Both the position numbers and the translations under genes were made by a program. From contig JAJDXK010000004.1 of NCBI GenBank assembly GCA_022823305.1, forward strand, positions 1 through 64,000: a DNA stretch of 64,000 nucleotides. The letters are read 5' to 3'. Positions 7,272 to 27,624 of the stretch are shown here, one piece after another; position 1 is the first letter of the stretch; each line of letters opens with the position of its first letter. Source of the stretch: Alphaproteobacteria bacterium (GTDB taxonomy: Bacteria > Pseudomonadota > Alphaproteobacteria > UBA828). A model generated the notes under the pieces. It searched no databases. It had not been told where the DNA came from and saw only the letters and a program-made list of their open reading frames with translations.

Positions 7272-8297
7272 TCAGCGAGCGGCGAGGAGCACGCCGACGG
7301 CCCTCGCCGAGGCTGCCATGGCGGCGAGCGCGAGCAGGGCGGCAAGGCTTGCGGTCGAGACGCCGGACAGGCCGGCGCCGACCGTGCAGCCGCCCGCCAG
7401 CACGCCGCCCACGCCCATCAGCACGGCGCCGGCGAGGTAGCGCCCGGTCTGGCGCGGCCCCTCCAGGCTCTGCCAGCGGAATTCGCCCGCCGCGAGCGCC
7501 GCCGCCAGGCTGCCCAGGATGACGCCGGCCGCCAGGCCCGTGCCGAAGCCGGCCGGAATGGACGTTGCCGCCACGGCCCAGAAGAGCGTGTCGGCCATTG
7601 GACCCGTGAAGCCCATCGACTGCACCGGGATCGGGTCGAAGTCGTCCAGCAGCACGAAGCCCGTGCCGATCCAGCCAAGCGGCACCAGCAGCCCGATGGC
7701 GCCCGCCATCGCCAGATGGGAGAGCCGCGCACGGGAGAAGAACGAGAAGAGCGCCGCGGCGGCGGCGATGACGAGCGGCCAGACTTCCCCGCCGGGCCAC
7801 GACGAGAGCGCGGCCGCCTCGCCGCCCGGAAGGGTCGCGTCGCCGAGCGCCTCGCGTATCGGCGCCAGCGCGCCCTTCATCACCGCATGCGCCGTGACGG
7901 CAAAGACGATCAGGACCAGCAGGGCGCGCAGATTGCCGGAGCCGGTCAACACGGTGAGGCGCGAGACGCAGCCGCCCGCCAGCACCATGCCGGCCCCGAA
8001 CAGCGCGCCCCCCAGCAGCGCGGATGCAAGCGGCAGGTCGGGCGCGAGAAAGCGGTGCGCCTCGAAGGAGATCAGGTCCAGGGCAACCGCCACCCGGGTG
8101 CCGGCGATCGCACACGCGAGCGCCATCACCCAGGTGCCGAGCGCCGGCAGGCAATCGCGCCATGCGCCGACCAGGCTGCGACGGAGGCAGAAGGCGCTGC
8201 GCTGCGCCAGAGCGCCGTAGGCGCAGCCGAGCACCAGGCCCAGCAGGACGGACGCCGTGAGCGGTGTCAGTTCCTCGAATCCCAGCTCCTCGAACAT
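7272..8297 (-). CDS. YeeE/YedE family sulfur (thiosulfate-type) membrane transporter
   Basis: A 341-residue polytopic membrane protein with about 9 hydrophobic segments. It carries the family's duplicated cysteine motifs GGCVSR (about residue 113) and GGCTVG (about residue 310), plus AQRSAFC near residue 35. In TsuA-like members these cysteines line a thiosulfate or sulfur-species path. ATG 8297 is preceded by AGGAGG 11 bp upstream; the open frame runs on for a long way upstream but that stretch is not coding. The gene is convergent with the sox unit, and sulfur uptake or export fits that context. Whether the substrate is thiosulfate, sulfide or a persulfide is not decided by sequence. Confidence 0.85.
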   Translation of the reverse strand: MFEELGFEELTPLTASVLLGLVLGCAYGALAQRSAFCLRRSLVGAWRDCLPALGTWVMALACAIAGTRVAVALDLISFEAHRFLAPDLPLASALLGGALFGAGMVLAGGCVSRLTVLTGSGNLRALLVLIVFAVTAHAVMKGALAPIREALGDATLPGGEAAALSSWPGGEVWPLVIAAAAALFSFFSRARLSHLAMAGAIGLLVPLGWIGTGFVLLDDFDPIPVQSMGFTGPMADTLFWAVAATSIPAGFGTGLAAGVILGSLAAALAAGEFRWQSLEGPRQTGRYLAGAVLMGVGGVLAGGCTVGAGLSGVSTASLAALLALAAMAASARAVGVLLAAR

Positions 8298-8912
8298 GGA
8301 GGGAGTTGCCTCCTGACTGCCGCACCGCCGCGCTCGGCAGGATCGCTCGCGTGCGCGAAGACCGCGGGGCTGCCGACCGTGGCTCAAAGATCGGACATTT
8401 CTCCATGGAGGAGAAGGTCTTTCGACGCGGCGACAGGCCGACGGGCTACGGGCTCTCACCCGGTCTCGGCACCGGCTGCGACCGCCCCGTTGTCGCCGGG
8501 AATCCCCCTTGCAGGTCCAGAACCTGGCCCACCCGGTGGGCGGTGAGAGCTTGCCAGTCCAGCACGATGCCGTGACCGGGGCGGACCGGCGCGCGGACCG
8601 CCGTTGACATAATTGGGTCACCAATTCAGAGTAACCGCTCGCCGCGCGATCGGCGCTCTTGCGCCGTCGCACAACCGAAGCAGCCCCGAAGGCCCGGACG
8701 CGCGGGTCGGCGGCGAGGGGCCGGGGGCCGCAACGGCGGGCGTGCCCGGACTGGCTCTCATCGCAGCCGCGACCCCGCCCGACGCATTCTGGCGATGGCG
8801 GCGTTCGGTGGGGAAACGGACAAGAGGGCGCCCGCAAGCCGTCGCCGTCCGATCGGCAACGGCACGAGCGCCCACAAGAACTGAACCGTATACACATGGG
8901 GAGGAAGCGGAC
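8298..8912. other. 615-bp intergenic region between divergent yeeE and TorT-like genes
   Basis: No coding frame here has convincing codon use or a recognisable product. The only structured element I see is the palindrome beside a TTGACA box at 8604-8626, listed separately. The region must hold both divergent promoters; the last 30 bp include GGGGAGGAAG, the ribosome site of the binding-protein gene. Confidence 0.5.
8604..8626 (+). promoter_or_regulatory. TTGACA box abutting a perfect 16-bp palindromic operator
   Basis: TTGACA at 8604-8609 is a consensus -35 element. It is followed one base later by AATTGGGTCACCAATT (8611-8626), a perfect inverted repeat of AATTGG with a 4-base centre. The symmetry is typical of dimeric GntR- or LacI-like repressor sites, and a repressor here would occlude the promoter. 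The matching -10 (near 8627-8632) is weak. It lies about 290 bp upstream of the TorT-like gene, so its target is inferred. Confidence 0.45.
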
Positions 8913-10007
8913 ATGACAGGATTGCGGAGTGCCTTCGTAGCGCTTTTTGCCGCAGGTCTGCTGCTGATGGGCGGTGTAAGCGCAGCCCAGTCGCAGGACT
9001 GGTGGCCCATCGAGGTGTTCGATCTCGGCGACCTGACGGCCGACGAGTTCGACGCGCTCGAGACCCTGCCCGAGACCGTCGACTACGTGCCGCTCGAGAA
9101 GGCCTCGCAGAAGTGGCACATCTGCGTGCTGTTCCCGCACATGAAGGACAGCTACTGGGTCAGCGTGAACTACGGCGTCATGGACGAGGCACGCCGCCTC
9201 GGCATCAAGGCGACGCTGTTCTCGGCCGGCGGCTACACCGAGCTCAACAAGCAGATCTCGCAGTTCGACGACTGCATGGCGCTCAACCCGGATGCGATCC
9301 TGATCGGCGTGATCTCGGAAGGCGGCATGAAGGCGAAGATCGCCGAGGCGCGCGAGAAGGGGATCAAGGTGATCGCCATCATCAATCCCCTCTTCGATAT
9401 CGAGGTCGATGCGCTGTCGACGGGTTCGAACAAGATCATCTGCGGCGTTGCGGCCGAGCACCTGGTCAACCTGTTCAAGGATCAGGAGAGCGCGAAGGTC
9501 GTCAGCCTGCCCGGTCCCCAAGGCTCGGGCTGGGCGGAGAAATGCCAGCAACTCGGGCTCGAGCGGGTGATCGAGGGCACCAACGTCGAGCTGCTCGAGG
9601 CGAAGTTCGGCGACACCGGCAAGAGCGTCCAGCTCAAGCTGGTCGAGGACGCGCTGCAGACCTACGACGAGATCGACGCGATCTTCGGCACCGCGGTGAC
9701 CGCGGAGGCGGCCGTCGGCGCGCTCGAGGAAGCGGGGCGTCAGGACATCGCCGTGATGGCCTGGTACATCAACCTCGGCTCGGTGGACCTGATCAAGAAC
9801 GGCGACATCGAGGGCGGCGTCACCATGTACGAGATCATCATGTCCCGTGTCGGCGTCGACCAGGCGGTCCGCATCCTCGAAGGCAAGCCCTACATGAAGA
9901 CCATGTTCACGCTTGCCAAGGTGCTGACCGAGGACAACTTCGATTCGGTGCCGGGGCACCTGCTCCTGGCGCCCTCGGACTGGGACCTGGTCTTCAGCGT
10001 GGACTGA
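8913..10007 (+). CDS. TorT-like periplasmic substrate-binding protein
   Basis: A 364-residue periplasmic-binding protein of the type 1 (ribose/TorT) fold. A signal peptide covers about residues 1-26 (LFAAGLLLMGGVSAAQS). The mature part has the TorT hallmark KWHICVLFPHMKDSYW at about residues 69-84, then GGYTELNKQISQFDDC, and two alpha/beta lobes. Family members feed RbsABC-type importers or the TorS sensor; no sensor kinase gene is in the window, while a matching RbsA/RbsC set lies convergently just downstream. The ligand is unknown. ATG 8913 follows GGGGAGGAAG at good spacing; the same frame is open far upstream but begins with no plausible signal peptide. Confidence 0.85.
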   Translation: MTGLRSAFVALFAAGLLLMGGVSAAQSQDWWPIEVFDLGDLTADEFDALETLPETVDYVPLEKASQKWHICVLFPHMKDSYWVSVNYGVMDEARRLGIKATLFSAGGYTELNKQISQFDDCMALNPDAILIGVISEGGMKAKIAEAREKGIKVIAIINPLFDIEVDALSTGSNKIICGVAAEHLVNLFKDQESAKVVSLPGPQGSGWAEKCQQLGLERVIEGTNVELLEAKFGDTGKSVQLKLVEDALQTYDEIDAIFGTAVTAEAAVGALEEAGRQDIAVMAWYINLGSVDLIKNGDIEGGVTMYEIIMSRVGVDQAVRILEGKPYMKTMFTLAKVLTEDNFDSVPGHLLLAPSDWDLVFSVD

Positions 10008-10019
10008 CCGACGACGCGG

Positions 10020-10119
10020 CTCCCCGCGGCGGGGAGTCGACGGCACCGGTCGCCGCTTGAGGCGCAACCGGTGAGGTAAGACCGGCGTGGCCGGGGCTGC
10101 TCTCGAGGCGGCCCCGGCC
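10020..10119. terminator. bidirectional hairpin terminators between convergent units
   Basis: Two perfect stems fill the gap: CTCCCCG-CGG-CGGGGAG at 10020-10036 and GGCCGGGGC with GCCCCGGCC around a 13-base loop at 10089-10119. A third imperfect stem, ACCGGTCGCC against GGCG-CA-ACCGGT, lies between them. T tracts are lacking. Position between convergent genes supports a terminating role. Confidence 0.55.
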
Positions 10120-10148
10120 ATCGCGTGCCAGTGTTGTCGAGGAAGTCC

Positions 10149-17440: not shown

Positions 17441-18601
17441 ATGACTTCGGGATCGAGCATACCGGCAGCCTCTTCGATACCGCCCGTTCTGGTCACGGGC
17501 TCGGCCGGGCATGTCGGCGCCAACCTCGTGCGCCGGCTGCTCGACGAGGGCGTGCGGGTCCGGGTACTGCTGAGACACGGGGACAACAACGAGGGCCTGG
17601 AAGGTCTCGAGGTCGAGCGCGCGTTCGGCGACATTCGCGATCTGGACGACGCCAGGCGGGCGATCGCGGGGTGTCAGGGCGTCTATCACTGCGCGGCCTA
17701 CATCTCGACCATCGAAGGCAACCGCGCCCATCGCCGCGAGGTGTTCGAGTGCAACGTTCTCGGCACCCGCAACGTGCTGCAGGCGGCGCGGGAGGCCGAC
17801 GCCGGCCGGGTGGTCGTGACCGGCTCGTTCAGCGCGGTCGGATACGACCTGGACGATCCCTCCGCCCCCAGCAACGAGACCATGCAGTTCTACCCCATGG
17901 AGCGCACGATGCCCTACGAGCGCAGCAAGTCGCTCGTCGAGCAGGAGTGCTGGCGCGCGGCGGCGACGGGACAGGACGTGGTGGTCGCGACCTGTTGCGC
18001 GGTGGTGGGAGGCGCCGACTTCTTCCCCTCGCGTCTGGGAAGAACGCTCTGCGACTACACCAACGGCAAGCTCCGCGCCTACATCGACGGCGGTTTCGAG
18101 TTTGTCGCGGCCCGCGACATCGTCGAGGGGCACCTGCTCTGCATGCGCCACGGCCGCTCGGGCGAAAAGTACATCTTCAGCACCGAGTACAAGACCATCT
18201 CGGATATCCTGGATCTCTACGAGGAGGTCTCGGGCGTTCCGCGGCCGCGCCGGCGAATTCCGACCCGCCTCATGCTCGTCTTTGCCGAGATCGCGAGCTT
18301 CTACCTGAGCCGGGTCCACCCGGGCTTTCCCCAGCGCTTCACCCCCGGCGCCATACGCCTGCTGCGAAAGTGCCGCCACGCCGACATCTCCAAGGCGAAG
18401 CGGGAGCTCGGCTATCGGCCGACCGGCATCCGCGCCGCGGTTCACGAGGCCTACGCGTTTCACTACGGCCGCAACGCGATGACGAACCCGCACGCGAAGC
18501 GCCCGCGCGAGGACGCCGCGAGTCACCGTGTCGCGCGGGAGGAGGGCGAGCCTGCGCCGGAGCAGGGCATGCGGATGATGGCGGGCGGGAGCGCGCCATG
18601 A
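17441..18601 (+). CDS. 3-beta-HSD-type NAD(P) dehydrogenase, SdmB-like (sterol C-4 demethylation)
   Basis: A 386-residue extended short-chain dehydrogenase. The nucleotide motif TGSAGHVG is at residues 19-26 and the catalytic YxxxK is Tyr159/Lys163 with serine at 129-131. The closest functional class is the 3-beta-hydroxysteroid dehydrogenase/C-4 decarboxylase group, which includes eukaryotic NSDHL and bacterial SdmB. In C-4 demethylation it would oxidise the 3-hydroxyl and release the C-4 carboxyl as CO2. The basis for the sterol assignment is context: the next gene is an SdmA-like Rieske oxygenase overlapping by 4 bp, followed by sterol reductase, CYP51 and cyclase. HpnA-like hopanoid epimerase is an alternative by fold alone. 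Confidence 0.8.
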   Translation: MTSGSSIPAASSIPPVLVTGSAGHVGANLVRRLLDEGVRVRVLLRHGDNNEGLEGLEVERAFGDIRDLDDARRAIAGCQGVYHCAAYISTIEGNRAHRREVFECNVLGTRNVLQAAREADAGRVVVTGSFSAVGYDLDDPSAPSNETMQFYPMERTMPYERSKSLVEQECWRAAATGQDVVVATCCAVVGGADFFPSRLGRTLCDYTNGKLRAYIDGGFEFVAARDIVEGHLLCMRHGRSGEKYIFSTEYKTISDILDLYEEVSGVPRPRRRIPTRLMLVFAEIASFYLSRVHPGFPQRFTPGAIRLLRKCRHADISKAKRELGYRPTGIRAAVHEAYAFHYGRNAMTNPHAKRPREDAASHRVAREEGEPAPEQGMRMMAGGSAP

Positions 18602-19695
18602 GGGCCGCGCCCGACGCACCGCCCGGCTTCGAGGATGCCGGCAACCTGCGCCAGCAGGCGCGCGCCGCGGGCATGGACCCGAATTACTGGTATCCGGTCG
18701 AGGAAGTGCGCCGGATCAAGCCGGAGACGGTGGTCGAGGTCGTCTTCTGGAAGCGTTCCATCGCGCTCTTCAGGGGAAGGGACGGCACCTTCCAGGCGGT
18801 CGACGATCGCTGCGCGCATCGCCAGCTCAAGCTCTCCATCGGCGACGTGCAGGGATGCCGGCTGGTCTGCGCCTACCATGGCTGGGAGTACGGCGGAAAG
18901 GGGCGCCCCGCCGGGGTGCCCCACGACCGCGAGGGGCGGAGCTTTCCGAACCTTGCGCTCAGGACCTACCCGGTGAAGGTCCGCTACGGCCTGATCTGGC
19001 TCTTCCCGGGGGATCCGGCGCTGGCGGAGGAGCGCCGGATTCCGGACATTCCCGAGCTCGAGGGACGCGGCCGCTGGGCCTGCGTGCCGCTCTGCTTCAC
19101 CTGGTCGGCACACCACTCGATGGTGATCGACAACGTGAGCGACTTCACCCACGCACATCTGCACCGCCGCTACCGGCCCTTCGACGGAGCCGACCTCACC
19201 CGCTGCGAGACCCTCGGCGACAACGTGCATCTCTCCTACGACACGCACGTCGGGCGCGGGCGCATCTCGGGCCTCTTCGTCGACCATCGGCGGCTCGACA
19301 CCAACCGCATGGAGCTTTGCTACGAATACCCCTACCAGTGGTCGAACACCGATGACGCGATCAAGCACTGGCTCTTCGTGCTGCCGGTCGACGAGCGCAC
19401 CAGCCGGGTGTTCTTCCTCTTCTACTTCAAGTCCCTGAAAATTCCCTATCTGCCGGTGCACATTCCCCGTTTCGCCATGACCGCGGTCATGAAGGTCTCC
19501 AACCGCCTCCTCATCGCCCCCCTGCTCACCCAGGACCAGTTCGCGCTGGAGGCGGAGCAGCAGGGTTACGAGAATCACTGGGACGCCCGTCCCGTCGAGT
19601 TCAATCCGGTGGTCAGGGCCTTTCAGAAGGTGACCGTGCGCAAGTGGCAGGAGCATCTGGCGCGCGAAGCGGAGAGCGGCGATGCCGCCGCCTGA
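18598..19695 (+). CDS. Rieske non-haem iron oxygenase, SdmA-like sterol C-4 methyl oxidase
   Basis: A 365-residue Rieske oxygenase. The 2Fe-2S centre ligands are Cys72/His74 (CAHR) and Cys91/His94 (CAYHGW). The mononuclear iron site is in NVSDFTHAHLH, with Asp182, His185 and probably His189; the histidine spacing is tighter than in most ring-hydroxylating oxygenases. In sterol-producing methanotrophs the Rieske protein SdmA oxidises the C-4 methyl to a carboxylate for removal by SdmB. Here it starts by ATGA overlap with the SdmB-like gene and ends 14 bp inside the sterol reductase gene, so the coupling is very tight. The reductase that supplies electrons is not in the cluster. Confidence 0.83.
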   Translation: MRAAPDAPPGFEDAGNLRQQARAAGMDPNYWYPVEEVRRIKPETVVEVVFWKRSIALFRGRDGTFQAVDDRCAHRQLKLSIGDVQGCRLVCAYHGWEYGGKGRPAGVPHDREGRSFPNLALRTYPVKVRYGLIWLFPGDPALAEERRIPDIPELEGRGRWACVPLCFTWSAHHSMVIDNVSDFTHAHLHRRYRPFDGADLTRCETLGDNVHLSYDTHVGRGRISGLFVDHRRLDTNRMELCYEYPYQWSNTDDAIKHWLFVLPVDERTSRVFFLFYFKSLKIPYLPVHIPRFAMTAVMKVSNRLLIAPLLTQDQFALEAEQQGYENHWDARPVEFNPVVRAFQKVTVRKWQEHLAREAESGDAAA

Positions 19696-20782
19696 AGCGC
19701 TCGACCTCTCGTCGGCGCTCTCGGGCGAGACCCTGCTCGAGGCGGCGGCGATAGTGCTGGGGTTCATCGCCCTGTTGTTCGTGGTATCGCTGCTGTTGCC
19801 GGGTCGCCGCGTCACGGGCCCGGATGCCGACGGAAACGAGCGCGTCTACAAGCTCAACGGCCTCGCACTCTTCCTGATCGCCCTGATCGTGGCGGGTCTC
19901 GCCCAGGGCTTCGGCTGGTTCTCCCTTTCGGTGCTGCATACCCACCTTCTCGCCCTCTTCGTCGTGGCGAACGGATTCGCGTTCGCTCTCTCGGGCTGGC
20001 TCTACCTGCGCGGGATGCGCAGGCCCGATGCAGCGCCCGGGTTCTGGCGGAGTTTCTTCTTCGGTGTGGATGCCGCTCCGTCCTGGTTCGGGGTGGACAT
20101 CAAGCTCTTCAGCTACTGCCCCTCTCTCATCGGCCTTGCGCTCTTCAACGCATCGTTTGCCGCCGTGCAGTACGAGACCTACGGCGAGCTGACGCTCGCG
20201 ATGATGCTCTATCAGACCTTCACCTTCCTGTACGTGCTCAACTACTTCCAGTTCGAGCAGGGGATGATCCATACCTGGGACATCGTCCGCGAGCGCTTCG
20301 GATGGATGCTGGTCTGGGGCGATTACGTGCTGGTGCCCTTCTTCTACTGTCTCCCCGGCTGGTGGCTGGTTCACGCACCGGAGCCGCTGTCGCCGGCCGC
20401 CGCCGCCGGGATCGTCGTGCTCTTCCTCTTCGGATTCTGGCTCTTCCGCGGTTCCAACCAGCAGAAGCACCGCTTCAAGCGCGACCCCGGTGTCAAGATC
20501 TGGGGGAGGCCCGCCAAGACCCTGGACGGACGCCTGCTGGTCTCCGGATTCTGGGGCATCGGACGGCACCTCAACTACAGCGGCGAGATCTGCGTCTACC
20601 TCGCCTTCACCCTGACCACCGGGCTTACCTCCTGGGCCCCCTTCCTGCTGCCGGCGTGGCTGGCGGCTTTGCTGTGGCACCGCTCGAGACGCGACGATCG
20701 CCGCTGCCGCGCCAAGTACGGCGATCTGTGGGAGCGCTACACGCAGCGGGCGCGCTTCGCGATGCTGCCCTTCATCTATTGA
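19682..20782 (+). CDS. sterol delta14 reductase (ERG4/ERG24/DHCR family)
   Basis: A 366-residue integral membrane reductase with about 9 hydrophobic segments. The C-terminal half has the family signatures: LLVSGFWGIGRHLNYSGEI (about residues 281-299) and the terminal HRSRRDDRRCRAKYGDLWERY block before a hydrophobic MLPFIY end, matching fungal ERG24 and animal LBR/TM7SF2. These use NADPH to reduce the C14=C15 bond left by CYP51. DHCR7 and ERG4 (C24 reductase) share the fold, so position specificity rests on the adjacent CYP51 gene. The ATG at 19682 lies within the last codons of the Rieske gene, a 14-bp overlap. Confidence 0.88.
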   Translation: MPPPEALDLSSALSGETLLEAAAIVLGFIALLFVVSLLLPGRRVTGPDADGNERVYKLNGLALFLIALIVAGLAQGFGWFSLSVLHTHLLALFVVANGFAFALSGWLYLRGMRRPDAAPGFWRSFFFGVDAAPSWFGVDIKLFSYCPSLIGLALFNASFAAVQYETYGELTLAMMLYQTFTFLYVLNYFQFEQGMIHTWDIVRERFGWMLVWGDYVLVPFFYCLPGWWLVHAPEPLSPAAAAGIVVLFLFGFWLFRGSNQQKHRFKRDPGVKIWGRPAKTLDGRLLVSGFWGIGRHLNYSGEICVYLAFTLTTGLTSWAPFLLPAWLAALLWHRSRRDDRRCRAKYGDLWERYTQRARFAMLPFIY

Positions 20783-20790
20783 GAGGGGAG

Positions 20791-22200
20791 ATGGCCAACC
20801 CGTCCCACAGCGTGGAGACCCTGCCTTCGGCGAACCTCCCGCCGCGGGCGGACGAGACCCTTCCCGAGCTCGCGGGCCGCTGGCCGCTGCTCGGCCATCT
20901 GCCGGAATTCCAGAAGGATCCGGTCGCCATGCTGGGCCGCGGCTGGCGCGAGCATGGCGAGCTCTTCCGCTTCCGACTCGGGACCCGCGCGTTCGTTCTC
21001 TTCACCGGGCCCCAGGCCCACGACTTCTATTTCAGGACGCCCGAGGAGCAGCTGAACGCCAAGGCCGTCTACCGCTTCACTGTGCCCATCTTCGGACGCG
21101 GCGTGGCCTACGACACCTCCCCGGACATCATGGCGGAGCAGCTGGGGTTTCTCTTTCCGGCGCTCCGCGAGGCCGCCATGCGCAGGTTCGCCCTCGTCAT
21201 GTTCGACGAGGCGCGGCAGTTCGCCGACGCCCTCGGGACGGACGGGGAAATCGATCTGCCGCACGCGATGAACGAGCTGACGGTCAAGATCGCCAGCCGC
21301 TGCCTGATCGGACAGGAAGTCCGCGATCGGGTGGATACCGGATTCGCCGAGACCTACCACGACCTGCAGAAGGGCATTAACACCCTGGGATTCTTTCTTC
21401 CCAATCTTCCCGTCGCGTCGCATCGACGCCGCGACAGGGCCCGGCGCAGGGTGGCGGAGCTCTTCGGGCGGATCATGGCGGCGCGCCGGGATGCCGGGGC
21501 CAGCCCCGACGACTTCATGCAGACGCTCATGAACGCCCGCTACAAGAACGGCCGTGCCCTGAGCGACGACGAGATCACGGGGATCCTGCTGACGGTTCTG
21601 TTTGCGGGCCAGCACACCAGCGCGGTGCTCGCGACCTGGACCGGTCTGGAGCTGCTCAGGGCGCAATCCTACCTGGCAAGGGTGAGAGACGAGGTGGGGG
21701 ACGTCTATCGCGAAGCGGGGTCCATGGACATCGACAGCCTCCAGCGCCAGCCGGCTCTGGAGAACGCCGTCCGCGAGTGCGAACGGCTGCACCCGCCGCT
21801 GATATTGCTGGTCCGAAAGGTGCTCGAACCCTTGCGCTACGGAGGCCGCGTCGTGCCCGCCGGCACCATGGCCATGGTGTCGCCGGCGGTCTCTCACCGC
21901 CTGCCCCATATCTTCGCCGACCCGGAGCGCTTCTTCCCCGACCGTTTCGCGCCTCCCGCCTGCGAGGACAGGCAACACCGCTACGCCCTGATCGGCTTCG
22001 GCGGCGGCAAGCACGCGTGCATGGGGAAGAATTTCGCGTACATGCAGCTCAAGGCGATCTGGACCGTTCTGCTCGATCGCTTCGATTTCTCCCTCAGCGG
22101 CGCCTTTCCGCGTCCGAACTACGGAAGCTGGGTGACGGGGCCCGAGAGACCCTGCCGCGTCCGCTACCGTCGCCGCTCGCAGCCGAGCGTCTTCCGATGA
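20791..22200 (+). CDS. cyp51: CYP51, sterol 14-alpha-demethylase
   Basis: A 469-residue cytochrome P450. The CYP51-specific B-C loop motif YRFTVPIFGRGVAYD is at about residues 92-106, and the I-helix signature GQHTS is at 273-277, diagnostic of CYP51 rather than other P450s. The ExxR pair is Glu329/Arg332 and the haem thiolate is Cys410 in FGGGKHACMG. There is no N-terminal membrane anchor, as in bacterial CYP51s such as that of Methylococcus (which carries a C-terminal ferredoxin fusion absent here). It removes the 14-alpha methyl of the cyclised sterol. ATG 20791 follows GAGGGGAG directly, and the stop overlaps the next start as ATGA. Confidence 0.95.
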   Translation: MANPSHSVETLPSANLPPRADETLPELAGRWPLLGHLPEFQKDPVAMLGRGWREHGELFRFRLGTRAFVLFTGPQAHDFYFRTPEEQLNAKAVYRFTVPIFGRGVAYDTSPDIMAEQLGFLFPALREAAMRRFALVMFDEARQFADALGTDGEIDLPHAMNELTVKIASRCLIGQEVRDRVDTGFAETYHDLQKGINTLGFFLPNLPVASHRRRDRARRRVAELFGRIMAARRDAGASPDDFMQTLMNARYKNGRALSDDEITGILLTVLFAGQHTSAVLATWTGLELLRAQSYLARVRDEVGDVYREAGSMDIDSLQRQPALENAVRECERLHPPLILLVRKVLEPLRYGGRVVPAGTMAMVSPAVSHRLPHIFADPERFFPDRFAPPACEDRQHRYALIGFGGGKHACMGKNFAYMQLKAIWTVLLDRFDFSLSGAFPRPNYGSWVTGPERPCRVRYRRRSQPSVFR

Positions 22201-25200
22201 GCGGCGCCGCGTCGCGGCGTTACGACGTGGCCATTGTCGGCGCGGGGCCTGTGGGGAGCCTGTGCGCGCTCGCTCATGCGCGGAAGGGCGCCCGGGTGGC
22301 CCTGCTCGAAGCGAACCCCAGGGCCTCCGAACGCCTGGCCGGCGAATGGCTGCATCCGCCCGGCGTGCGGATTCTGCAGAACTTCGGGATCGGGCTGGAC
22401 ACCCTGCCCCGCAGCACCGCGGGCAAGGGATTCGTGCTCTTTCCCGATGACGGCTCGGAGCCGATCGTCCTTCCCTACGAGAACGGCTCGCAGGGTCTGG
22501 CCTGCGACCATGCGTTGCTCGTCTCCAAGCTGCGGGAAGCCATCGAGAACGAGGCGGACGTGGATTTCTTCACCCACACGCGGGTGAACGCGGTCGAAGA
22601 CGGGCGGCTGGCCTACACCGACAACGGCACGGTTCACTCCCTCGACGCCGAGCGGATTATCGGCGCCGACGGCCGGGCCTCCATCGTGCGCCAGTCCCTG
22701 GGCCTCTCCACGGAGCCGATGCTCTGCTCGCGGATGCTGGGAATCACCGTGAGCGACGTGAACCTGCCCTTCGAGGGCCATGGGCATGTGCTGCTCGGCG
22801 GGCCGGGGCCGATTCTCGCATACGGTGTGACAAGGGATTGCGTCCGGATCATCGTCGATGTTCCGCTGGACCGCTGGACGCGCCAGGACCGGGTCGGCTT
22901 CCTGACGGAATCCTACGCGACCCTGTTGCCGGAGGCTCTCAGGCCGGCCTTCGTCGAGGCGCTGCGGGCGGGGCAATTCCACGTTGCGGCCAATCAGTTG
23001 CGGCCGCGCGTCACATACGGGAACCCGCGTCGCGTGCTGATCGGCGATGCGGCCGGGCACTACCATCCCATGACGGCGGTCGGCATGACCCTCGGTTTCG
23101 GCGATGCGCTCGCCCTCGCCGAGGGCGGCAGCTTTCGCGACTTCGCCGCCGGGCGTTTCCGGGCGACCCAGGTGCCGGAGCTGCTTGCCATGGGGCTCTA
23201 CGAGGTCTTTGCCGACCATCGGGCCGAGGCGCTGGCGCTCAGACACGCGGTCTACTGGGGGTTGCGGGCGAATTCCGGCTACCGGGCGCGGACCTCGCGG
23301 ATACTCGCCTGCGAATCCCGCTCCGCGCTCGTGATGGGTCTCGCGTTTTTCACAACGGCGGCCCGGGCGGCGGTGGTGGAGATTCCGCTTTCCTTCCGCC
23401 GCTTCGCTCCTCTTCGGGGCCTGAAGGTCTTCGGCGCGCTCACCCTTCGTCTCTTGTGGCTCCTGCGCTGGGCTCTGCAGCTGCGCCAGTCGCGACGCCA
23501 GGGCGGGAAGAACGACGAGCGAGCCCTGGACAGTCTTGCCCACGCGCTTTTGCACTCCATGCCGCCGGGGACCGACGCTTCCGGGCCCCGCCGGCCGAAG
23601 GACCCCGAGGCGCCCGATGCCGAGCCGGCGTTGAGGAGCGCGACGGCGCAGCTCCTCGGCCTCCAGGGCGAGGACGGCGGCTGGGAAGGCGAGATGGTCT
23701 GGTGCCCCATGCTCACCGCGCAATACGTGCTGCTGCACCACATCATCGGGCGGCCGCTCGAGCCCGGCCGGCGCCGGCGCGTGCTGCGCTCCTTCGAGCG
23801 GACCCGTCTCGACGGGGGCACGTGGGGCCTGCACGAGCACGCGTCGCCCCACCTCTTCGTCACCGCCCTGGTCTACGTCGCGGCGAGACTGCTCGGCGTC
23901 GAGCGGGACGATCCTCTGGTCGAGCCGGCCCGGCGCTTCATACAGGCCGAAGGGATCGTGGGCATTCCGAGCTGGGGAAAGTTCTGGCTGGCGCTCCTCA
24001 ATCTCTACGACTGGCGCGGGGTCAACGCCGTCCTGCCGGAACTGTGGAGCCTGCCGCGCCGCCTGCCCCTGCACCCCTCGAACTGGTACTGCCACACCCG
24101 GCTCATCTACATGGCGATGGCGGCGATCTACGCGTGCCGCTTCCAGGCGCCCGTCACGCCCGCGATCGCGTCGCTGCGGGAGGAGCTGTTCCCCCAAGGC
24201 TTTGCCGAGGTGGATTTCTCCGCCTCCCGCAATCGCCTGCGGGAGGCCGACCTCTACGCGCGGCCGAGCGTGTGGCTCAAGGTGGGATACAAGGTTGCGC
24301 GCGTGTTCGACCGGCTCCACGGCAAGCGCCTGCGCGCCCGATGCACGGACGCGATCGTCCAGCAGATCAGATGGGAGCTGCAGACCACCAGCCACACGTG
24401 CATTTCTCCGGTGAGCGGCCTTCTCAACATGCTTGCGCTCTGGCTGCGCGATCCGGACGACGCCGATCTTCGCCAGGCGCTGGCGAAGCTGGACGACTGG
24501 ATCTGGGAAGACGAGGAAGAGGGCGCGCGCGTCGTCGGCGCGAGAAGCGCCTCGTGGGACAGCGGCTTCGCGCTGCAGGCGCTGGCGGCGGTGCCTGCGT
24601 TGGACGGGGTCGGGGACGCGCTGCGGCGCGGCGCCGACTTCCTGCTCGGGGAACAGATCGCCGCGAGCTTCGAGGGGTTTCGCGAAGCCTATCGAAGCGA
24701 CCCCAGGGGCGGCTGGTGCTTTGCCGGGGGGTGGCACGGCTGGCCGGTGAGCGACTGCACCGCGGAAGCGGCGCTCGGGATTCTCGCTGCCGGCCGCGGC
24801 GCCGCGCATGCGGACGCGTTGCGCGACGCGGTCGGCTTCATGCTGCGCAGCCAGAACCGCGACGGCGGATTCGGCAGCTACGAGGCGCGCCGCTCGGCCT
24901 TCGGTCTGGAGTGGATGAACCCGGCCGAGATGTTCGGCGACTCGATGACCGAGCAGTCCTATGTCGAGTGCACCGCGTCCTGCCTCGCGGCGCTCGCCGC
25001 CTGCGCGGAGGAGGTTCCGCAAAGCGCGGACGGGGCGGTGACGGGCGCGATCGCCCGGGGCGACGCCTGGCTGCGCCGGACCCAGGCGAGCGACGGCTCG
25101 TGGCGCGGTGTATGGGGGGTTCAGTTCATCTACGGCACCCTCTTCGGGATCAGGGGTCTTCTTGCCGCCGGGGCCGACCCCGGCGATCCGGCGCTGCGCT

Positions 25201-25610
25201 CGGCCTGCCGCTGGCTGCTGGAGCGCCAGCGGGCAGACGGGGGATGGGGCGAGCACCACAGCGGATGTCTGAGCGGCCGCTACGTCCCGCACGAGGAAAG
25301 CCAGGTCATCCAGAGCGCGTGGGCGTTGATCGCGCTCCTCGAGGCGGGCGAATCGAGCTGGAGCGCGATCGCGCGGGGCGCCCGCTATCTGCTCGACACG
25401 CTGGATGCGGACGGGACATGGCCCAAGCAGGACATGGCGGGCGTGTTCTTCCGAACCGCGCTGCTGGATTACGTGCTCTATCGACAGTATTTCCCGCTGC
25501 ACGCGCTCGCTCTCTACGAGCAGCGCCGCCGCGAGCGGCTGGGTCTCGCCACCCTCGCCCCGTGTGCTGCCGGCTCGTTGCCGCCCTTGCCCGAAGCGGC
25601 GTCCGCCTGA
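22197..25610 (+). CDS. squalene monooxygenase - oxidosqualene cyclase fusion protein
   Basis: A single 1137-residue frame joins two consecutive sterol enzymes. Residues 1 to about 430 are an FAD monooxygenase: VAIVGAGPVGSLCALAHARKG dinucleotide fold at about 11-31, GDAAGHYHPMTAVGMTLGFGD as the squalene monooxygenase FAD motif near 282-302, and a hydrophobic membrane-associated tail. A charged, proline-rich linker spans about 435-480. Residues 480-1130 are a triterpene cyclase: QW repeats (QNRDGGF, QASDGSW, QRADGGW) and the catalytic VSDCTAE with Asp853, the oxidosqualene form rather than the DxDD of squalene-hopene cyclase. ATG 22197 overlaps the CYP51 stop. Met455 could allow an internal start, but no ribosome site is evident there. 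Product is probably a lanosterol-type sterol. Confidence 0.92.
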   Translation: MSGAASRRYDVAIVGAGPVGSLCALAHARKGARVALLEANPRASERLAGEWLHPPGVRILQNFGIGLDTLPRSTAGKGFVLFPDDGSEPIVLPYENGSQGLACDHALLVSKLREAIENEADVDFFTHTRVNAVEDGRLAYTDNGTVHSLDAERIIGADGRASIVRQSLGLSTEPMLCSRMLGITVSDVNLPFEGHGHVLLGGPGPILAYGVTRDCVRIIVDVPLDRWTRQDRVGFLTESYATLLPEALRPAFVEALRAGQFHVAANQLRPRVTYGNPRRVLIGDAAGHYHPMTAVGMTLGFGDALALAEGGSFRDFAAGRFRATQVPELLAMGLYEVFADHRAEALALRHAVYWGLRANSGYRARTSRILACESRSALVMGLAFFTTAARAAVVEIPLSFRRFAPLRGLKVFGALTLRLLWLLRWALQLRQSRRQGGKNDERALDSLAHALLHSMPPGTDASGPRRPKDPEAPDAEPALRSATAQLLGLQGEDGGWEGEMVWCPMLTAQYVLLHHIIGRPLEPGRRRRVLRSFERTRLDGGTWGLHEHASPHLFVTALVYVAARLLGVERDDPLVEPARRFIQAEGIVGIPSWGKFWLALLNLYDWRGVNAVLPELWSLPRRLPLHPSNWYCHTRLIYMAMAAIYACRFQAPVTPAIASLREELFPQGFAEVDFSASRNRLREADLYARPSVWLKVGYKVARVFDRLHGKRLRARCTDAIVQQIRWELQTTSHTCISPVSGLLNMLALWLRDPDDADLRQALAKLDDWIWEDEEEGARVVGARSASWDSGFALQALAAVPALDGVGDALRRGADFLLGEQIAASFEGFREAYRSDPRGGWCFAGGWHGWPVSDCTAEAALGILAAGRGAAHADALRDAVGFMLRSQNRDGGFGSYEARRSAFGLEWMNPAEMFGDSMTEQSYVECTASCLAALAACAEEVPQSADGAVTGAIARGDAWLRRTQASDGSWRGVWGVQFIYGTLFGIRGLLAAGADPGDPALRSACRWLLERQRADGGWGEHHSGCLSGRYVPHEESQVIQSAWALIALLEAGESSWSAIARGARYLLDTLDADGTWPKQDMAGVFFRTALLDYVLYRQYFPLHALALYEQRRRERLGLATLAPCAAGSLPPLPEAASA

Positions 25611-25669: not shown

Positions 25670-26701
25670 TCAGTCGTGCAGGGGCCCGGGCTTGCGGGCC
25701 AGGAAGAAGAACATCGGCGTGAAGACGCCGGACCTGCCGCCGGCGACCAGCGCGTCCGCCCCCGCATTCAGGATCGTGCTGACCGCGCGGGCGCCCTCGG
25801 GAAAGAGACGAAGCCTCTCGCCCACCCGCAAGGTCAGATTGGTCAGCGCCCGGCCGAGCGGCGTGCGCGGAATGCTCGACAGGCTGAGGTCGCGGCCCTG
25901 CAAGGCGCGGTACCAGGGCATCTCCGGGTCCGCTTCGGACGCGCGGTCGCGCGCCTCCAGGAGCTCGAACCCCGCCGCCTGCAATGCGGCGGAAACCTCC
26001 GCGGTGGTCGCGATATCCGGCAGCCCGTTCCCGACCATGATGTCGCTCTTGATTCGCCGGTGTTCCGCGTTGGCGGGCTCGAATTTCTCGGTGAGGCACC
26101 ACTCGTAGCCCGCGAAACAGGCGCCCGGACGCAGCACGCGCAGGACCTCGCGGAACGCGTCCGTCTTGTCGGGCGCGTGAGGCATGGACTCGATCGCCAT
26201 GGCGGCATCGTAGCGGTCGTCGTCGTCGGGAATCTCCATGTAATCGCCGTGAACGAAGCGGCACAGCGAACCGACGTCGCGGGTGTGCAGCTTCGCACGC
26301 TCGATCTGGTAGGCGTTGTTGTTGAGACCGACAAAGCTGGCGCCGGAATGGCGCGCCAGATTGCCCATCGGCCCGCCGACCCCGCACCCAAGATCGATGA
26401 CTTGCATGCCCGGTTTCAGGGACAGTTTTTCGGCGAGAATATGCTGGTGTCGCAGCAGCGACGCCTTGAAGCTCTCGCCCCGGCGGCGGGGCGCGAAGTG
26501 GAAGGACTGGCCCCAGCCGAACTCGTAGAAGTCAGTCGCCAGGTCGTAGTAGCGATTGACGAACGAGCGGTAATGCTCCTTCCTGCGCTCCAGGCCGGCG
26601 TCGTAGATTTCGGTATATCCGTCGACCGTGGACTTCACGTCGTCCGGGGCGAGACCTCCGAGGGAGCGCTGTTTCGATTGTGTTGGGGAGGAGCGGTTCA
26701 T
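25670..26701 (-). CDS. sterol C-24 methyltransferase (ERG6/SMT type)
   Basis: A 343-residue SAM methyltransferase with the sterol-specific region I YEFGWGQSFHF (Tyr59-Phe69) that lines the sterol-binding site in plant and fungal SMTs. SAM motif I is VIDLGCGVGGP at 101-111. Further SMT-like blocks are NNNAYQIERAK, GDYMEIP and the GYEWCLTEKFEP stretch, corresponding to the conserved YEW region. It should transfer a methyl group to the C-24 double bond of the sterol side chain. The gene is convergent with the fusion gene (59 bp apart) and divergent from the EXPERA-like gene. Tocopherol-type methyltransferases lack the YEFGWG motif, which makes SMT the better call. Confidence 0.9.
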   Translation of the reverse strand: MNRSSPTQSKQRSLGGLAPDDVKSTVDGYTEIYDAGLERRKEHYRSFVNRYYDLATDFYEFGWGQSFHFAPRRRGESFKASLLRHQHILAEKLSLKPGMQVIDLGCGVGGPMGNLARHSGASFVGLNNNAYQIERAKLHTRDVGSLCRFVHGDYMEIPDDDDRYDAAMAIESMPHAPDKTDAFREVLRVLRPGACFAGYEWCLTEKFEPANAEHRRIKSDIMVGNGLPDIATTAEVSAALQAAGFELLEARDRASEADPEMPWYRALQGRDLSLSSIPRTPLGRALTNLTLRVGERLRLFPEGARAVSTILNAGADALVAGGRSGVFTPMFFFLARKPGPLHD

Positions 26702-26889
26702 CGGCGCATTATGCCAGATTTGCTGTCCTTTCCCAAGACCCTGAAGTCATGTAAGGCCCTGGCACCGCGCTTGCCGGCGCCGTTATCGACGGCGTCCCGG
26801 CCGCGGCATCGTCGTCCGGGGCGCCCGGCTTTCCGCGGGGTACAATGCGACGCGCCGCAGCACCGCAGCGCCTGAGAGGACCGGATCAC
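26702..26889. other. divergent promoter region of the sterol methyltransferase and EXPERA-like genes
   Basis: This 188-bp gap separates two divergent genes and must contain both promoters. A TACAAT hexamer at 26840-26845 could be a -10 for the + strand gene but has no good -35 partner. GAGAGGA at 26874-26880 is the ribosome site for ATG 26890. Confidence 0.4.
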
Positions 26890-27624
26890 ATGCCAGAAGA
26901 GCAGGCGGACGGAGCCCCTTCCAGACCCGACGAGCACCGGAGCCGGCTGGCGATTCCGCCGCTCGCTTTCGCGGGGCTGGTCATCGCGGGTCTGACAGCG
27001 GCCGGCATCGGTGCGCGCTACGGTGTTCGCGGGGATTTCGACGTTATCCATGGACTTCTTGTCCTCTTCTTTTCCATCAATCTGGTGATCTGCCATTGGG
27101 AGATTTGCTTGTTCCTCAAACGCGATTACATAGAGAGACGCGTCCAATACTGGCGCGAGCGCCGGGAGAAAACAGGCCGGACATCAGCGGTCGAATTTCT
27201 TACCGGAAGTGTTCCATTGAAGCGAATATTATCCTCGGAGACATGGGCGGACGTCTGGGCCACATACTCACAGTTCGACAGTTCCTACGCCGACCGGCGC
27301 ACGTACGGCTACAACGTGGATATTGCCAACGGCTTGGTAACGCCGCTGCCGATGCTGCTCCTCTTCGCCGCCTTTACCATCGATTTTCTGCCCGCCCTCG
27401 TCGCCGGCATCGTCGGAGCGATGATGTTCTGGCAGCTGACCTACGCGACCTCGGTCTACTTGGTCAGCTTCTTCGTGGCCGGGCGGCAACGCCTCATCGG
27501 CAAGAGGGACGTGTACATCTACATCTGGGCGCTGAACTGCCCCTGGGTGCTCTTCCCCCTGCTGGGGCTCTACGTCTCGATACGCCTGATCGTCGACGGC
27601 GACTATGGTGTTCTCGGCTATTGA
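26890..27624 (+). CDS. EXPERA-domain protein like emopamil-binding protein; candidate sterol delta8-delta7 isomerase
   Basis: A 244-residue protein with four or five hydrophobic segments (about 21-45, 50-76, 146-166, 168-196, 209-234). Hand comparison with human EBP finds the same spacing over three blocks: WxxYxxxDSxY (Trp123, Tyr126, Asp130, Ser131, Tyr133), then 11 residues on an acid (Asp144 in place of the EBP glutamate), and NxxWxxxP (Asn216, Trp219, Pro223). EBP moves the sterol delta8 double bond to delta7. The first catalytic His/Glu pair is not aligned; His69 and Glu71 are nearby. The middle of the gene is less GC-rich than its neighbours. Start 26890 has a good ribosome site; ATG 26845 is weaker. 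Confidence 0.62.
   Translation: MPEEQADGAPSRPDEHRSRLAIPPLAFAGLVIAGLTAAGIGARYGVRGDFDVIHGLLVLFFSINLVICHWEICLFLKRDYIERRVQYWRERREKTGRTSAVEFLTGSVPLKRILSSETWADVWATYSQFDSSYADRRTYGYNVDIANGLVTPLPMLLLFAAFTIDFLPALVAGIVGAMMFWQLTYATSVYLVSFFVAGRQRLIGKRDVYIYIWALNCPWVLFPLLGLYVSIRLIVDGDYGVLGY

Follow-up and report, generated by a model that had tools for sequence, protein, structure and literature searches.

A fused squalene monooxygenase-oxidosqualene cyclase of the MsbE type within a predicted sterol gene cluster of an alphaproteobacterium

The cultured sterol producer Methylococcus capsulatus encodes squalene epoxidase (MCA2872) and the oxidosqualene cyclase Osc (MCA2873) at neighbouring locus numbers (Wei et al. 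2016, PMC4919349), that is, as two separate genes for the same two enzymatic steps that are fused at the locus described here. Mohanty et al. 2020 (PMC7074536, GenBank MT026193) described a bifunctional enzyme, MsbE, in the msbA-F cluster of a gammaproteobacterium symbiotic with the sponge Melophlus sarasinorum. Clusters of steroid genes (CSGs) were subsequently found in 115 of 537 Ircinia MAGs from ten phyla, with purifying selection on the CSGs and horizontal transfer inferred, although the gene was annotated as lanosterol synthase only and the term 'fused' does not occur in that paper's text (Kelly et al. 2022, PMC9531527). Methyltransferases of such clusters were assayed in vitro by Brown et al. 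2023 (PMC10070321), who refer to the fusion in their methods alone, where 'fused SMO/OSC homologs' were trimmed ahead of tree construction. Our search of open-licence papers found no assay of any fused protein.

We analysed a window of 64,000 nucleotides from an alphaproteobacterial contig (JAJDXK010000004.1) in which one gene (22197-25610, + strand, 1137 aa) encodes a squalene monooxygenase fused to an oxidosqualene cyclase. The initial annotation had taken such a fusion to be new and the two activities to be encoded by separate adjacent genes in bacterial sterol producers. The latter is true of cultured producers, Methylococcus among them, and fails for sponge symbionts, and the claim of novelty was not upheld, MsbE having been published as bifunctional in 2020 and fused homologs having been mentioned in 2023. 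The window gene is one more member of the described MsbE-type fusion, which is common in sponge-associated bacteria. As in MsbE, an N-terminal epoxidase and a C-terminal cyclase with the diagnostic valine lie in one protein, and the neighbouring genes correspond to MsbA (NAD(P) oxidoreductase), MsbB (Rieske), MsbC (C14 reductase), MsbD (14-demethylase) and MsbF (SMT); this likeness is one of description and gene roles, and the host here belongs to the Alphaproteobacteria whereas that of MsbE is gammaproteobacterial. The locus also shares with the Ircinia CSGs (PMC9531527) the core ERG24-CYP51-LSS and an SMT on the opposite strand. Less documented before are the regularity of the fusion and the presence of an EBP-like neighbour at 26845-27624.

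The fused frame begins with an ATG at 22197 and reaches its stop codon at 25608-25610 with no internal stop over 1137 aa. Long open frames come cheaply in this high-GC window, which also holds frames of 1407 aa on the opposite strand and 1345 aa in another + frame, so openness of the fusion ORF was not taken as proof of coding. Third-position GC stayed between 0.77 and 1.00 along the whole ORF with no dip or change of phase at the linker. Pfam searches identified FAD_binding_3 (aa 9-308, 2e-25) and the SE squalene epoxidase domain (aa 154-386, 2e-24, above cut-off) in the N-terminal half, followed by SQHop_cyclase_N (aa 480-773, 6e-51) and SQHop_cyclase_C (aa 784-1108, 1e-51). The initial description of a single uninterrupted frame of 1137 codons with both domains was therefore borne out by the ORF, Pfam, third-position GC and the frames of congeners, and the motifs it had listed (GxGxxG, GDAAGHYHP, VSDCTAE and QW repeats) are all present as GAGPVG, GDAAGHYHPMT, VSDCTAE and QW-like repeats. 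An AlphaFold2 model of the fusion, made with 45 fused relatives as input (mean pLDDT 81, pTM 0.76), gave fold matches of its two halves to human oxidosqualene cyclase (OSC; 1.9e-38) and human squalene monooxygenase (SQLE; 7.6e-21). Each half resembles its human counterpart, lanosterol synthase (LSS, 1w6k) and squalene monooxygenase (6c6r), in fold and catalytic residues, although in human these are separate proteins.

The core of the FAD squalene-epoxidase domain occupies aa 1-401 (22197-23400, + strand) and combines the SE Pfam domain with the FAD motifs of a squalene monooxygenase. Human squalene monooxygenase was its best PDB match by sequence (1.9e-26) and, among FAD monooxygenases, its closest fold (6c6r, TMt 0.79), the match reaching helices to about aa 450; the human enzyme carries an additional regulatory region at its N-terminus. 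The C-terminal helices of the epoxidase and the linker (aa 401-481; 23397-23640, + strand) were delineated from the alignment, dN/dS and the model. A linker of about 45 residues had been proposed, and a charged, Pro-rich sequence does extend over residues ~437-482. In the AlphaFold model, however, helices continue to ~450 and confidence is very low only at aa 459-468, so the real, flexible joint is shorter than 45 residues.

The oxidosqualene cyclase domain (aa 480-1108; 23634-25520, + strand), with VSDCTAE at aa 851-857, matched human lanosterol synthase far better than squalene-hopene cyclase (SHC) by sequence (E = 5e-131 vs 4e-53). A squalene-hopene cyclase identity was rejected on this comparison and on a TIGR01507 score of 269 bits against a cut-off of 431. 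Alignment to human LSS placed D853, C854, C925, H633, W787, Y895, W973, F1084 and V851 at the positions of D455, C456, C533, H232, W387, Y503, W581, F696 and V453, and all nine, which include every catalytic OSC position checked, are invariant in 45 fused proteins. The domain thus has the features of a lanosterol-type OSC, with DCTAE, the equivalents of D455, C456, C533, H232 and F696, and a valine at the V453 position. The score for the NCBIfam 2,3-oxidosqualene cyclase model TIGR03463 was 751 bits, below its cut-off of 851, although with E = 8e-226, and the cyclase half lies above the cut-off of the broader TIGR01787.

Upstream of the fusion and on the same strand are four genes with short overlaps at their junctions. 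They encode an SdmB/MsbA-like NAD(P)-dependent sterol C4-decarboxylase/dehydrogenase (17441-18601; 3Beta_HSD/Epimerase, with NCBIfam SdmB as best match, below cut-off), an SdmA/MsbB-like Rieske sterol C4 monooxygenase (18598-19695; Rieske and VanA_C, with NCBIfam 4beta-methylsterol monooxygenase at 4.5e-119, below cut-off), an ERG24/MsbC-like delta14-sterol reductase (19682-20782; ERG4_ERG24, 4.5e-67) and a CYP51/MsbD-like cytochrome P450 (20776-22200; p450, 1.2e-56) that overlaps the start of the fusion by 4 nt. The P450 is called a sterol 14-demethylase on the strength of its position and the literature, no CYP51-specific model being involved. Downstream of the fusion and on the opposite strand lies a sterol C24-methyltransferase of the SMT/ERG6/MsbF type (25670-26701; Sterol_MT_C, 3.6e-20, and Methyltransf_11), so that homologues of MsbA-D and MsbF, judged by gene roles, are all in the cluster. 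The genome holds three genes of the squalene/phytoene-synthase family, which could supply squalene, and, elsewhere, a separate gene resembling hopene cyclases (C107); a search of the genome for a second squalene-epoxidase-like gene of comparable score found none.

To place the fusion among its relatives, we scanned one genome per species from ~85,000 species and obtained 247 cyclase relatives, the best 80 of which were examined. Epoxidase and cyclase share one open frame in 78 of these 80, three of the 80 being the same congener contigs as in our comparison of the genus, where the fusion occurs in three other species at 88-91% identity with no indels in the linker. The initial annotation had named a frameshift at 23400-23700 as what would overturn the fusion and had called for a search for fused homologues across the linker; that search, with fused genes in nearly all of the best relatives and a homologous linker, excludes such a frameshift, the fusion being kept across many independent assemblies. 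In favour of an artefact, in which a lost stop codon or a frameshift had merged two normal adjacent genes, breaks of this gene do occur in relatives: of the sole two of the best 80 in which the same arrangement is interrupted, one changes frame inside the linker (L073, 9718-10001), and the other changes frame within the epoxidase and has a stop in the linker (L099, 8569-11926). Such an artefact is nevertheless hardly credible for the window copy, as the frame is unbroken there and in its congeners, the linker matches those of relatives in sequence and length, and third-position GC remains in phase throughout. Among congeners dN/dS was 0.13-0.19 in the cyclase, 0.21-0.28 in the epoxidase and 0.30-0.53 in the linker, placing all parts of the gene under purifying selection; on these values and the intact motifs, a pseudogene was rejected for the window copy. 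The gene is confirmed as a genuine epoxidase-cyclase fusion and not a sequencing artefact. One of the three congeners (G005; L007/L030), counted among the 78, has a TAG in frame at codon 650 that interrupts the cyclase half although its fused gene is intact elsewhere; this is either a sequencing error or early decay.

Given a real fusion, the cyclase might still form parkeol, cycloartenol or a mixture in place of lanosterol. The positions of human LSS T381 and C449 are occupied by A782 and H847, and a histidine at the latter position is also found in plant cycloartenol synthases; these sites tune the product and do not define the family, and something other than pure lanosterol may be formed. 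The valine at the V453 position, retained in every one of the 45 fused proteins, argues however for lanosterol, for which it is the literature marker (including Mohanty et al. 2020, PMC7074536), and the adjoining genes for C14 and C4 demethylation suit lanosterol, so that we regard another triterpenol as unlikely. It is more improbable still that the N-terminal domain has lost squalene epoxidation or acts on another substrate, with oxidosqualene arriving from elsewhere, for example a sponge host. Consistent with such a loss, the epoxidase half is more divergent than the cyclase half in nearly every relative (77 vs 84% identity in L027, 57 vs 72% in L094) and reaches only 2e-26 to human SQLE. 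Set against this, however, are an SE domain that scores over its cut-off, the FAD and GD motifs, a fold closest to that of human SQLE, dN/dS of 0.21-0.28 and a genome in which no other squalene-epoxidase-like gene scores comparably.

The relatives suggest a common origin of the fused genes. The linker-spanning region was alignable across 78 sequences, and a stretch of 115 residues containing the linker is exactly 115 aa long in 55 of the 78; a homologous linker of near-constant length argues for a single fusion event. Trees of the two halves had 20 strong splits in common (of 34 strong in the cyclase tree and 42 in the epoxidase tree), and a few strongly supported disagreements, around L036/L048 and L051/L068, may reflect limited recombination between the halves. 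The unfused outgroup consisted of two plasmid sequences, from Streptomyces and Planktothrix, the former on a very long branch. Judged by record title, the best 80 of the 247 relatives come from at least eight phyla (Pseudomonadota, Actinomycetota, Nitrospirota, Chloroflexota, Acidobacteriota, Binatota, Rhodothermota and Gemmatimonadota), which are interleaved in the cyclase tree. A sponge is named in the records of two of these loci (L027 and L064), and from their sample names we take many others to be sponge or coral metagenome bins. Within the family the fusion was present in 4 of 21 genomes, with no match in four of the eight genomes of the genus and 13 in the rest of the family, although several of these non-matching genomes are incomplete, two of the four in the genus reaching just 62-67% completeness. 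Among 398 genomes of the phylum no cyclase besides the window's own gene was found at E ≤ 1e-60. Patchiness within the genus and interleaving of phyla fit horizontal transfer without proving it. The neighbours reappear in most relatives whose flanks are long enough, in the best 80 of 247 as CYP51-like (56), SdmB (53), SdmA (52), ERG24 (52) and SMT (39) genes, and the fusion family probably arose from one fusion event, its homologies suggesting spread over phyla by transfer with the cluster.

Beyond the methyltransferase lies a gene for a membrane protein of 259 aa (26845-27624, + strand) that gave nothing above cut-off in Pfam or NCBIfam. Its AlphaFold2 model (pLDDT 83, pTM 0.77) retrieved human EBP as the first and second matches in a PDB fold search (probability 1.00; TMt 0.66 and 0.57; E 0.017 and 0.18). 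Homologues lie near the sterol cluster in 22 of the 80 relatives (best 80 of 247), and 12 of these 22 match the EXPERA/EBP Pfam model weakly (best E 0.005). Its invariant residues E86, D159, N231 and W234 presumably correspond to E80, E122, N193 and W196 of EBP, based on a manual alignment with the human sequence. Those EBP residues are among the ones needed for its activity (PMC4263179). The modelled fold and these positions make this protein a candidate sterol delta8-delta7 isomerase of the cluster. A 65% identical EBP-like homologue (L113, 8877-9623) occurs in a genome of the same genus (G007) that has no fused epoxidase-cyclase and no sterol gene within 16 kb beside the homologue.

By homology, the window gene most probably (with a probability of about 0.9) encodes a bifunctional, membrane-associated MsbE-type enzyme that would convert squalene through 2,3-oxidosqualene to a lanosterol-type sterol. 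The N-terminal flavin domain would use O2 to form 2,3-oxidosqualene from squalene, and the DCTAE aspartate D853 of the C-terminal cyclase would then protonate the epoxide to start cyclisation. Products of the next genes in the cluster would remove the C14 and C4 methyls and alkylate C24. The two-step sterol synthase suggested initially is plausible for a real fusion, within a sterol cluster, of both domain types. We infer that oxidosqualene could be handed over directly between the active sites, whose relative placement in the model carries only a fair pTM; the benefit of fusion may just as well lie in equal dosage or a shared membrane anchor. A wider reading, possible but rather doubtful, is that a single ancient fusion gave a channelling two-step synthase across sponge-symbiont phyla, kept since free oxidosqualene is costly or diverted, a point to which the hopene-cyclase-like gene of the source genome is relevant, and that with a cryptic EBP-type isomerase the cluster makes a side-chain-alkylated delta7-type sterol de novo. 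A fused epoxidase-cyclase makes the commitment to sterol synthesis a one-gene trait, which would ease its transfer between bacteria, and bears on a possible bacterial source of sponge sterols and on the sterane biomarkers read from them.

Some further observations concern other genes. In the window, a 949-aa frame on the - strand (7272-10121) has a Sulf_transp (sulphur-transport) domain only in its last third, the remaining two-thirds being without a Pfam match and perhaps not all coding. On a plasmid of Streptomyces sp. YIM 121038 (L024, 6004-10039), consecutive genes encode a cyclase, a squalene/phytoene synthase and an FAD oxidoreductase, the very divergent cyclase keeping SDCT. Plasmid p2 of Planktothrix agardhii (L025, 3145-16304) encodes an oxidosqualene cyclase that is not fused and shares 57% identity with the fused one, together with a separate FAD monooxygenase, a squalene/phytoene synthase and several P450 genes.
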